The notes under the pieces: generated by a model
The model's input: only the letters and a program-made list of their open reading frames with translations
Databases searched by the model: none
Told to the model about the DNA's origin: nothing
Translations under genes and position numbers: made by a program
DNA from: an uncultured Clostridia bacterium
GTDB lineage: Bacteria; Bacillota; Clostridia; UMGS1883
DNA: 64,000 bases
Direction: 5' to 3'
Assembly (NCBI GenBank): GCA_947626145.1
Contig: CANQRB010000001.1
Location: 186,001-250,000, forward strand
In this document: positions 1,667-63,152 of the stretch, one piece after another
Position numbering within the stretch: position 1 is the first letter of the stretch
Layout of the letters: each line of letters begins with the position of its first letter

Positions 1667-1754
1667 TGGTGCTCGGGACCGGGATCGAACCGGTACGGCT
1701 TTATGGGCCGGGGGATTTTAAGTCCCCTGCGTCTACCTGTTCCGCCACTCGAGC
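1667..1754 (-). tRNA. tRNA-Leu (anticodon UAA)
   Basis: A class II tRNA with a long variable arm. The anticodon loop reads CTTAAAA (UAA), the T loop reads TTCGATC within a 5-bp stem, the D-arm carries the usual GGTAGACGC, and the 3' CCA is encoded (1667-1669 on the plus strand as TGG). The acceptor stem GCTCGAG/CCCGAGC contains one A6-C67 mismatch. A consensus promoter lies just upstream. Confidence 0.95.
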
Positions 1755-59492: not shown

Positions 59493-61109
59493 TTATTTAT
59501 AGGCCGCAAGTCCTTCCCGGAACGCCGCTATGGTGTCCTCGTTTTCATTCATCATGTACGGCCTCGAAATGACAAGCCTATCCGGATCCGTCTTGTCGAG
59601 GTCATAGCCGCTCCACCATACCGCCGCCTTTATCATCGGATAATTCGGAAGGCTGGCAAACATATCGTTTATCCAGGCCGGCTTGTCGCCGCCTATGCCG
59701 CTGCAGGCAAACTCCGTTATCATCAGGGGTTTGGCGTACCGGCGTACATAAGTGGTGTACAGCTCATCATACAGCTCGTCAAAGGTGTTCCAGCTCTCAA
59801 AATCGTAATATGTACCCGTGTTGTAGGCCGTCATGCCAACAACGTTCACATACGGGTCGCCGGGATAATACATAAGCTCGTGGTTCCACTTGAAGTCCGG
59901 GAACGAACGATTGTTGGGATTGAAGACCCATATGGCGTTGTCGGCCCCCTGCTCGGCAAATATGTTGAATATATAACGGTAGAATTCAATATAAATATCC
60001 GGATCCCGACAGGTGACGAAGGCGCTGTAAGGGCACCAGTCGCCGTTCATCTCGTTGCCGGGGCGCATCAGCACCGGCCTGCCGAAGCGGGCAACGTCGT
60101 CGGCGTAGGCGCGGAGAAACTTCTCGTATTCGCCATTGAGCACATCGTATATCATCAGCCCCTCTTTCCCCTTCATATAGGTCTGGAGGGTCAGCTCGGG
60201 AATTTTGCCCGGCGGGCATACGCGGTCAAGCAGATCGTAAAGCCGTTCTCCCAATATCATGGGTTCGCCGTACCTGTTGACATTAAAACCTGAATAAAGC
60301 AAATATATGTCAAATTTATAGTCCACCTGTTCTTCAACCTCAGGTATTTCGCTTACCATGCTCAAATAAGCGCCCCAGGTAAGGTCGGCGTCAGGCGCAA
60401 AAATCCTGTTGTATGCCTCGCTTGCCACGCTGTTCAAAGCCGGCCCGGCGCCTTCGCCAACTCTGATGCTTTCCGGCAGAACAAACGCGTCAACGGCGTA
60501 GAAACTCTCCACAATCGGCGTGATCTCCTCCTCGAGATTCACTCCCTCCGCAAATTTGAACATCAGAGTTATCACCCGGCAAAGTTCGTCGGATCCGTCA
60601 TACTTTATGTCGTAGCAGGCGTAATTCGGGAGATCGTCGGGCACCTCGGACAGGGGTCGGCGGGACCATACGGCATAAACGGCGTCGTGTCCGTCTACCG
60701 TCATGACTCCCTGATCCCAGATGCCGATGTCACAGTCGGTGGAAAGAAAGGTGTTGGAGTAATTTATGTATTCGTCAGGCGTTACGGTCAGACAGTCCTG
60801 AGTGTAAATATGGAGCTTTACGCTGCCGTAAGACACGGTGGTCCGGAGAGGGGAAAGCCCGGTGTCCACAACCGCTCCCATGGGGAGCGTGACATTATAG
60901 CCCTCTGTGTCGTTCATCAAATTGACATGACCGTCAACGGTTTCGTAATACGAAAAACCGTCCGCCCCGCCGATGAAGCTGATCATTTCAAGGCCGTTGT
61001 GGGAGAGATAAACTTCATCCGCTCCGTAGTAGCTTCCGTGAGCCGTCGGCACGGTTAATACAGCCGCGGCCAGAATCAACGGCAAAATATGACTTAGCTT
61101 TTTTATCAT
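59493..61109 (-). CDS. Secreted GH26-like glycoside hydrolase
   Basis: A 538-residue exported protein. Residues 1-25 form a signal peptide ending 'VPTAHGS'. A beta-rich N-terminal domain runs to about residue 210 and resembles the PsbP/DcrB-type accessory domains of clostridial lipoproteins. From about residue 235 a TIM barrel of the GH26 type follows: acid/base Glu353 in 'RPGNEMNGDW' and nucleophile Glu466 in 'MITEFACSG'. GH26 enzymes cut beta-mannan or related mixed-linkage glucan. The start at 61109 is chosen because a strong promoter overlaps the upstream open frame, so an earlier Met would not be transcribed; the ribosome site (GGTGG) is weak. Confidence 0.85.
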   Translation of the reverse strand: MIKKLSHILPLILAAAVLTVPTAHGSYYGADEVYLSHNGLEMISFIGGADGFSYYETVDGHVNLMNDTEGYNVTLPMGAVVDTGLSPLRTTVSYGSVKLHIYTQDCLTVTPDEYINYSNTFLSTDCDIGIWDQGVMTVDGHDAVYAVWSRRPLSEVPDDLPNYACYDIKYDGSDELCRVITLMFKFAEGVNLEEEITPIVESFYAVDAFVLPESIRVGEGAGPALNSVASEAYNRIFAPDADLTWGAYLSMVSEIPEVEEQVDYKFDIYLLYSGFNVNRYGEPMILGERLYDLLDRVCPPGKIPELTLQTYMKGKEGLMIYDVLNGEYEKFLRAYADDVARFGRPVLMRPGNEMNGDWCPYSAFVTCRDPDIYIEFYRYIFNIFAEQGADNAIWVFNPNNRSFPDFKWNHELMYYPGDPYVNVVGMTAYNTGTYYDFESWNTFDELYDELYTTYVRRYAKPLMITEFACSGIGGDKPAWINDMFASLPNYPMIKAAVWWSGYDLDKTDPDRLVISRPYMMNENEDTIAAFREGLAAYK

Positions 61110-61160
61110 TCGAAGCACCACCGTCAGCAGGATTTTGTAAGAACGTTTATCTTTATTTAA

Positions 61161-61189
61161 GTATAGCATATTATTGTCCGCTTGTCAAG
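61161..61189 (-). promoter_or_regulatory. Sigma-A promoter of the GH26 gene
   Basis: TTGACA (61189-61184) and TATACT (61166-61161) on the minus strand with a 17-base spacer. Confidence 0.85.
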
Positions 61190-62520: not shown

Positions 62521-62832
62521 TTATAAAATATACTCCTCCTCTCCGTCCATATATTTCTGAAAATCCACACGAATGAGCCTTTCATCGCCAACGACAGCCT
62601 CGGGATGCCGGAAGGCCATGTTGCCGGCAAATCCGATAAAGCTCACCGTCATGTCGTGATTCAGCGCCATAATTTCATCGTTCGGCCTCGCCATAACGCA
62701 CACGCCGTCCTGAAAAGTCACGCCCTCATTTGCCGCCTGCCGCATAAAACGCCTTTTAGTCTCCTTTGATGAAAAGTATAAGTATACCCTTCCATCCATT
62801 TCCGCCAGATTTTTGATTGTCCTGTTTTCCAT
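62521..62832 (-). CDS. Uncharacterised 103-residue protein behind a SAM-type riboswitch
   Basis: I do not recognise this small soluble protein. It opens 'MENRTIKNLAEMDGRVYLYF', is basic in its first half ('SSKETKRRFMRQAANEG') and has a hydrophobic, likely buried second half ('ALNHDMTVSFIGFAGNMAF') and an acidic C-terminus ('YMDGEEEYIL'). It has one Cys and no signal peptide or TM helix. The ATG at 62832 follows AGAGAGG. Its leader contains a SAM-I/IV-clan riboswitch-like aptamer and two hairpins, so expression probably responds to S-adenosylmethionine, which points to methionine, SAM or methylation metabolism; that is inference. Confidence 0.75.
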   Translation of the reverse strand: MENRTIKNLAEMDGRVYLYFSSKETKRRFMRQAANEGVTFQDGVCVMARPNDEIMALNHDMTVSFIGFAGNMAFRHPEAVVGDERLIRVDFQKYMDGEEEYIL

Positions 62833-62840
62833 AAAAAACA

Positions 62841-62897
62841 CCTCTCTAAAAATTTTTTAGAGTACATAAAAGATCCCATCGTTACCGACAGGATCTT
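62841..62897 (-). promoter_or_regulatory. Riboswitch expression platform: two hairpins before the start codon
   Basis: A 12-bp stem with G-U pairs (outer arms AAGATCC at 62897-62891 and GGATCTT at 62876-62870, GTAA loop) is followed by TTAT and could be an intrinsic terminator. A second hairpin (CTCTAAAA/TTTTAGAG, 62862-62844) overlaps the ribosome site AGAGAGG (62847-62841), so it could hide it. Confidence 0.55.
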
Positions 62898-62910: not shown

Positions 62911-62997
62911 ATCCTATCGGCCAAGCATTAGCACCTTGCCATCCGGCAGGTTGCTGTGCGGTCAACGAGCTTGTCTCTCACGCACTCTATATAGGAT
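62911..62997 (-). promoter_or_regulatory. SAM-I/IV-clan riboswitch aptamer, compact and lacking P4
   Basis: On the minus strand the element folds into P1 (ATCCTAT/ATAGGAT), P2 (GTGCG/CGCAC) with kink-turn-like TGAG/GTTGAC and an inner GAG/CTC stem, then the conserved CAGCAACC, P3 (ACC-TGCC-GGAT-GGCA-A-GGT) and AAGGTGCTAAT, the hallmark SAM-I core. The P2 loop CAAGC can pair with GCTTG after the core, which is the expected pseudoknot. The usual P4 hairpin is missing. The whole aptamer is 87 bases, downstream of a consensus promoter. Confidence 0.75.
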
Positions 62998-63017
62998 GTA
63001 CCTCTTGGTACAGTGTC

Positions 63018-63046
63018 ATTATAACATAGTAGATCATGTTTGTCAA
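63018..63046 (-). promoter_or_regulatory. Consensus sigma-A promoter of the riboswitch transcript
   Basis: TTGACA (63046-63041) and TATAAT (63023-63018) on the minus strand with a 17-base spacer; transcription would start about 15 bases before the aptamer P1. Confidence 0.9.
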
Positions 63047-63087
63047 GAATTATTTTCTTGAAACTGGCAAATTCATTTATATAAAAC

Positions 63088-63115
63088 TATCCGGGACAAC
63101 ATTTTGTCCCGGATA
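63088..63115 (-). terminator. Terminator of the DUF2828 gene
   Basis: 12-bp perfect stem TATCCGGGACAA/TTGTCCCGGATA with a 4-nt loop, then GTTTTATAT on the minus strand. Confidence 0.82.
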
Positions 63116-63152
63116 ATACTTTACGAGATTGTCAGGCATATTGCTAAACCGG

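Follow-up and report, generated by a model that had tools for sequence, protein, structure and literature searches.

A predicted SAM-I riboswitch without P4 precedes an orphan small-protein gene in Clostridia phages and chromosomes

SAM-I (S-box) riboswitches are described as switches that are OFF at high SAM (PMC10853860), and two other types of the SAM clan have descriptions close enough to require comparison. SAM-I/IV is reported to have a P4 stem and to be without the loop pseudoknot (PMC6890682), its variants being described as without the internal loop of P2 (PMC2864571), and SAM-IV is reported to be without P4 and to have a second pseudoknot, PK-2, together with P5 (PMC6890682). SAM-I also has an uncommon branch, likewise OFF in its logic and associated with genes of its own, that is described as rejecting SAM and sensing spermidine (PMC10853860). 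Phages are described as seldom carrying riboswitches (PMC9004378), though a glutamine riboswitch has been found in marine phages (PMC9004378) and c-di-GMP-I switches in C. difficile prophages (PMC11477304). Neither a SAM riboswitch in phages nor a SAM-I riboswitch without P4 turned up in searches of one open-access library, and reports may exist all the same.

The DNA analyzed in this study is a stretch of 64,000 nucleotides (64 kb, hereafter the window) from an uncultured Clostridia bacterium. When the window was searched with the Rfam SAM model, RF00162 matched the minus strand at 62997-62911 with 63.0 bits (cut-off 44.4, E 2.9e-12), and the RNA was aligned to model positions 1-108 of 108 with the P4 part skipped. 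A first-pass annotation made from the letters alone had proposed a compact SAM-I core with GCAACC, in which P1, P2 with a kink-turn-like internal loop, P3 and a pseudoknot followed one another within 87 bases and P4 was missing. The RF00162 alignment bore out each of these features, and its bounds were exactly the coordinates that had been proposed. The pseudoknot had been given as five pairs between CAAGC and GCTTG; both strands are present, but only four pairs were counted because the fifth competes with a pair of P2b. Read on the minus strand, the parts of the aptamer are P1 (8 positions with one mismatch), P2, GCAACC, P3, AAGGTGCTAAT and the CAAG(C)/(G)CTTG pairing. No other RF00162 match was found in the genome (2.44 Mb), for which 150 of the 167 first-look candidates were scored.

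Covariation among homologous aptamers, which the annotation had named as a check, also agreed with the proposed fold. Across 31 related aptamers 95.0% of cells were paired and changes on both sides were seen at 13 of the 28 pairs, and neither value was reached by any of 500 shuffles; when the structure was slid along the same 31 aptamers as a control, at most 39.5% of cells paired. Because both the pairing and the double changes beat the shuffles and the slid structures, a chance origin of the aptamer was excluded. The pseudoknot was paired in 100% of its cells, and the double changes at 2 of its 4 pairs both come from one sequence, L042. In alignment A7, from which L061 and L064 were left out (long P3), the P2 kink-turn internal loop is conserved. 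The GCAACC/GGUGC core of P3 is kept in the window RNA, and some relatives differ at one of its pairs. At one P3 pair, 16 aptamers have G-U, 5 have G-C and 10 were read as having A-C. The predicted window aptamer is, on this evidence, a real SAM-I structure.

The same annotation had placed the RNA nearer to SAM-IV or SAM-I/IV, and this part of its reading did not hold. The SAM-I/IV model (RF01725) scored 32.2 bits against a cut-off of 41.1, and the SAM-IV model (RF00634) did not match the locus at any E up to 10. The window RNA has the SAM core in common with both types, and SAM-IV is likewise described as lacking the P4 of SAM-I (PMC6890682), but the window RNA differs from SAM-I/IV in having the P2 internal loop and the loop pseudoknot, and from SAM-IV in that PK-2 and P5 were not seen in it. 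Since the loop and pseudoknot are present, P4 is absent and the SAM-IV and SAM-I/IV models fail, the predicted aptamer is assigned to SAM-I, of which it is a P4-less variant; P4 was not treated as defining SAM-I because it is not needed to pass the cut-off, though it is usual in the class. The core, the kink turn, the pseudoknot, the P1-based antiterminator/terminator logic and a score above the curated cut-off are shared with the S-box family. What differs here is the missing P4, an orphan small-protein target on a mobile cassette, and an extra element behind the terminator (segment B) that faces both the aptamer and the Shine-Dalgarno region. The annotation was silent on the expression platform, on the gene controlled and on any connection with phages.

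Surveys of related genomes give some measure of how unusual the loss of P4 is. RF00162 is present in 229 of the 391 genomes of the class, and each of the best matches listed (at least 86 bits) spans at least 96 bases, by reading. When a model of the P4-less aptamer (R1) was applied to these 391 genomes, with at most 11 candidates scored per genome, 22 matches among those listed reached at least 72.2 bits and the next scored 62.7. In the window's own order an RF00162 match was found in 3 of 28 genomes, with part of the first-look candidates scored, and all three are P4-less. A P4-less pattern was found in 27 viral contigs, to which a relaxed pattern adds L067, compared with 7 contigs for a pattern of P4-bearing forms, which by reading are 3 P4-bearing switches, 2 P4-less switches before or near metK-like open reading frames (L260 and L264) and 2 chance matches; this comparison is rough because the patterns are not equally loose.

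The 22 P4-less matches in genomes precede several kinds of gene. Four stand before clear members of the orphan family considered below (the window, G008, G127 and G164) and two before distant members (G265 with 20.6 bits and G065 with 16.1 bits), while the remainder precede metK in two genomes (L244 by Pfam, L246 by reading), N-formylglutamate amidohydrolase-like genes in three (L231, L233 and L245), an ADP-ribosylglycohydrolase-like gene in one, and small or unnamed genes; L243 was not parsed. One of the three amidohydrolase-like genes is a fragment just below the Pfam cut-off, and in L006/L231 the gene seems to be broken into two frames. Further small or unnamed genes stand behind P4-less SAM-I switches at L016, L017, L022, L032, L033, L037, L226, L227, L236, L237, L239, L240 and L242. 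Kinship of the main family with the small proteins of L032/L010/L240 and of L236/L237 was rejected (hhalign probability 0.7% and 0.3%), and a layout common to the main family and these two groups is an impression.

In the window, the predicted riboswitch is one part of a compact cassette whose features are collected in Table 1. The hairpin that sets the cassette apart from the gene upstream is a consensus match, and shuffles average 0.8 such sites. The -10 box of the window ends 20 bases before the aptamer. Among 37 leaders (L002 was left out, its upstream sequence being too short) the best promoter averages 10.8 of 12 consensus bases versus 7.8 in shuffles, and in 32 of them the gap between the end of the -10 box and the aptamer is 4-8 bases, which would put the transcription start at or close to P1.

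Table 1. Features of the cassette, by position in the window
Feature	Position	Strand	Basis
Terminator-like hairpin behind the upstream DUF2828/DUF7788 gene, sets cassette apart	63086..63117	-	14-pair stem, T-rich tail
Promoter, TTGACA - 17 nt - TATAAT, TG before -10	63018..63046	-	12/12 consensus bases
SAM-I aptamer without P4 (P1, P2 with kink turn, P3, pseudoknot)	62911..62997	-	RF00162, 63.0 bits; covariation
Segment A: P1 5' strand, J1/2 and P2 5' side; alternative partner of B	62975..62998	-	pairing energies
P1 5' strand	62990..62997	-	Rfam alignment
Pseudoknot 5' strand CAAG(C), P2b loop	62969..62973	-	sequence; covariation
GCAACC of P3	62949..62954	-	sequence and Rfam alignment
Pseudoknot 3' strand (G)CTTG	62922..62926	-	sequence; covariation
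P1 3' strand, common to antiterminator	62911..62918	-	Rfam alignment; duplex energies
Intrinsic terminator, predicted 12-pair hairpin and short U run	62868..62897	-	minimum-energy fold
T5, ATCCTGTCGG: terminator left arm, also complementary to P1 3' region (antiterminator)	62885..62894	-	duplex energy
Segment B: post-terminator, pairs with A or C	62848..62867	-	pairing energies
Segment C: Shine-Dalgarno region AGAGAGGTG	62839..62847	-	sequence; pairing energies
Target gene, 103-aa orphan protein	62521..62832	-	open frame; family searches; predicted fold

The arrangement of these features is probably that of a two-level OFF switch, in which termination is combined with masking of the Shine-Dalgarno region. 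With SAM bound, P1 and P2 would hold, T5 would pair with the right arm of the terminator and transcription would stop, and in transcripts that leaked through segment B would close the Shine-Dalgarno region (C). Without SAM, the 3' strand of P1 would take T5 to form the antiterminator, while segment A, the 5' part of the aptamer thus released, would take B and leave the Shine-Dalgarno region open, so that the net effect would be a small protein made at low SAM. The low-SAM direction is proposed because SAM-I switches are usually OFF at high SAM. The model draws its support in the sequence from the aptamer fold, the antiterminator/terminator complementarity, the A:B and B:C complementarity and the linkage to one protein family. 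SAM as the ligand, the OFF direction, the putative second level, at translation, and the role of the protein are inferred.

The complementarity behind this model was measured in 33 leaders, which were left from 38 parsed leaders after removal of near-identical ones (90% alike); L025, L033 and L037 had no parsed start. The duplex of the P1 3' region with T5 is -18.6 kcal/mol in the window and averages -15.7 over the 33 leaders, the weakest being -9.6. A and B of the same leader pair with a mean of -14.54 kcal/mol compared with -12.29 when leaders are swapped, and none of 20000 permutations was as good; shuffled B pairs with A at -6.5 kcal/mol. The result held in a set of 19 leaders with gene identity below 50% (-14.34 versus -12.25 swapped, 0 of 20000). 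B and C of the same leader likewise pair better than swapped ones (-10.69 versus -7.02, 0 of 20000), and the A:B and B:C pairings are mutually exclusive. The hairpin behind the terminator beats shuffles (p <=0.05) in 22 of the 33 leaders, with a p of 0.065 for the window's own. The window terminator, with its short U run, was not listed by a simple terminator scan.

Folding without SAM gave a more divided picture. In the computed SAM-free ensemble of the window leader the expected pairs are 8.5 for A:B and 9.5 for the antiterminator, compared with 2.1 for the terminator and 2.5 for B:C. Over all 33 leaders, 17 favor A:B, 15 favor B:C and one is tied; 14 favor the terminator over the antiterminator. 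Two leaders have weak A:B pairing (L041 at -2.1 and L061 at -6.4), and a cruder test of A:B against ordinary SAM-I leaders, in which 10 of 30 fetched loci were parsed, gave a Mann-Whitney p of 0.13 (33 versus 10). These mixed counts over the whole set take a little from the strength of the two-level reading as a whole, which we hold to be probable.

The most serious competitor to this reading, a genuine possibility though not the favored one, is that control is by termination only, B:C being a mere ribosome-site hairpin or mRNA stabilizer and A:B a by-product of the purine-rich character of A and of the Shine-Dalgarno region. A and C are alike in many leaders (AAAGAG and AAAGGAG), and because they resemble each other any segment complementary to C will be partly complementary to A. 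When the 17 leaders with a non-consensus A were considered, B paired better with its own A than with the consensus A in 9, worse in 5 and equally in 3; the 5 fit the by-product explanation, as do the 15 leaders that fold B:C rather than A:B. However, B in many leaders also contains TAGG, which matches the CCTA of P1, and own A:B pairs have the advantage over all 20000 permutations. Additionally, the best aptamer window for B is A itself (-14.5), whereas windows clear of A reach -4.8 to -7.4.

The ligand of the aptamer would be SAM. A SAM-I look-alike that senses something else, such as SAH, a SAM-derived signal or a polyamine, is unlikely, though some relatives do vary near the pocket. The P3 pair next to the pocket is C43-G59 (CCAACC/GGTGG) in L060, L061, L063, L064, L066, L129, L226 and L239 and A43-C59 in L047-L051 and L058. 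Against this, position 43/59 (T. tengcongensis numbering) presumably lies next to the SAM-contact residues rather than being one of them. The window RNA itself preserves the pocket nucleotides, namely GCAACC/GGTGC, AGAG in J1/2 and GAU in P1, and its GCAACC is what we take to be the SAM-contact core, going by the contacts in the T. tengcongensis structure. A loose variant pattern, CCAACC-N-AAGGTGGTAA, occurs in at least 120 places, and among the matches listed only L129 reads as an aptamer (RF00162 53.4 bits). SAM-I variants that reject SAM and sense spermidine do exist, but these are described as changed in J1/2 and in the P3 internal loop (PMC10853860). The window RNA, with J1/2 and the P3 pocket unaltered and with other targets, is therefore set apart from the spermidine riboswitch by the description of the latter (PMC10853860).

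Protein searches returned 31 loci, including several near-identical copies. They comprise a named phage (Ruminococcus phage NatCom_28274, PV036439.1), four genome-contig loci (one of which is the G008 locus), three loci in genomes of the class, and 15 and 8 loci on viral contigs that form a first and a second group. RF00162 is above its cut-off upstream of all 31 relatives, and the R1 model also matches upstream of 31/31 with 76.9-106.3 bits. One caveat of this count is that profiles A3-A6, which lie behind the class-genome and both viral searches, include members first met through the switch and may be biased to switch-linked relatives; the named phage and the four genome-contig loci were found with the window and G008 proteins only. 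When the search was started from the RNA instead, the family was directly downstream in 20 of the 27 viral contigs with the P4-less pattern and other genes in 7. An HMM confirmed the family in 16 of those 20, its pass having missed several loci through its pattern, and found it downstream in L067 as well. At L010 the gene is a fusion, with the switch before its first part. The predicted switch is linked to one orphan protein family.

Only PV036439.1 was returned from the phage collection with three queries, plasmid searches with two members gave nothing, and of the first viral and genome scans, made with the window protein or a two-row alignment, two of three were empty and the third gave 4 loci. 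The family is present in 5 of 391 genomes of the class (the window, G008 and three further) and in 2 of 398 of the phylum.

The surroundings of the cassette differ among these loci. Neighboring genes lie mostly on the opposite strand in the named phage and the first viral group, and mostly run in the same direction in the second group. The next, convergent gene is C5 DNA methyltransferase-like by motif search in 14/14 loci of the first group and the named phage with enough flank (L046-L058 and L007), though L044 and L045 are cut short and many of these loci are near-identical; at L054 this neighbor is Pfam PF00145. An N4/N6 methyltransferase motif lies beyond the C5 gene in 8 loci. No C5 DNA methyltransferase neighbor was found in the second group (0/8), and synteny within one phage lineage could explain the neighbor in the first.

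In the chromosomes viewed, the cassette stands mostly alone between unrelated genes. By eye, that of the window lies between the DUF2828/DUF7788 gene and an unrelated gene, an arrangement similar in L220, L009 and L010, and transposase-like genes are nearby in L221. In G008 (contig 172, L223), a single case, the genes that come straight after the cassette are Druantia type I defense genes (DruE1 1732.6 bits, DruD 36.6). A prophage around the window copy was considered and found no support, as no phage genes were seen by eye in the open reading frame lists over about 30 kb, few of which were scanned against families. Elsewhere in the window there are an ordinary tRNA gene (1670-1754, minus strand, 48.9 bits) and a glycosyl hydrolase family 26 gene (59493-61169, minus strand) near a sporulation stage III AA gene.

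These loci bear on the next alternative, that this is an ordinary host S-box switch on an unnamed methionine-related gene and that the phage copies hitch-hike. The Rfam family is the same, and P4-less relatives precede metK in the two genomes and stand before or near metK-like frames in the two viral contigs noted above. However, the protein has no named family, its genes are rare in the class and the phylum, no sulfur gene was recognized by eye among the neighbors, and the cassette is carried by a named phage and 23 predicted viral contigs, it being noted that the viral collection was searched on purpose. We regard this alternative as quite unlikely. It is very unlikely that the window copy is a functionless remnant in decay, since the short U run, the 88-bp decayed gene piece without a switch in G007 of the same genus and the absence of a match in the 6 other same-genus genomes searched are set against a perfect promoter, an intact aptamer, antiterminator, Shine-Dalgarno region and open frame, and a confident predicted fold.

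The target protein offers few clues by homology. No match with E <0.001 was found in Pfam, PHROGs or PADLOC for 25 members or in NCBIfam for 2 members, and the best family match (E 0.004) is PHROG 10971, whose function is unknown. AlphaFold2 predicted the 103-aa protein with a pLDDT of 94.1 and a pTM of 0.86, in the order helix-strand-helix-strand-strand-helix-strand-helix. Among PDB structures the best Foldseek E was 0.42, with no VIA-align Z >=2 among 282 chains; in BFVD, phage proteins without a name matched weakly, the best with an E of 0.012. A DNA-mimic protein was considered and rejected, as a mean net charge of -0.8 and a mean pI of 6.3 over 25 members are insufficiently acidic.

The reading we consider probable is that of a P4-less SAM-I OFF switch on a self-contained cassette (promoter, riboswitch, terminator and small gene) that occurs in Clostridia phages and as single chromosomal copies, with control at two levels and production of the protein under SAM shortage. 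The aptamer belongs to an established class, and what is new, within the reach of the searches, is its setting, platform and target. Like the glutamine (PMC9004378) and c-di-GMP-I (PMC11477304) switches this would be a phage-borne metabolite switch, but the aptamers differ and here one protein family accompanies the switch on many of the viral contigs. Phages and SAM also meet in the phage SAM lyase (PMC7877911); this is described as an enzyme that destroys SAM, whereas the element here is a predicted SAM sensor, and its 103-aa protein has no PDB match.

The phage setting, the cassette's own promoter and, in one group, the methyltransferase neighbor suggest a phage or prophage function tied to the use of SAM. 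Most likely, the protein helps the phage or prophage to manage when SAM is short, DNA methylation being one process where this could matter. More tentatively, the cassette common to Clostridia phages and chromosomes might govern, at both transcription and translation, a new family of small proteins acting at low SAM in phage-host conflict or in the host SAM economy, for example by restraining SAM-dependent defense or protecting phage DNA methylation. A switch without P4 informs how much of SAM-I can be removed with the pocket kept, and its presence upstream of every relative found by protein search gives a handle on how phages use the SAM level of the host. The occurrence of the cassette in gut phage sequences and as a single insert in chromosomes suggests that phages use the SAM level of the cell to time production of the protein. 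If the switch acts like other SAM-I switches, the protein would be wanted at low SAM, which is the first functional clue for this family.
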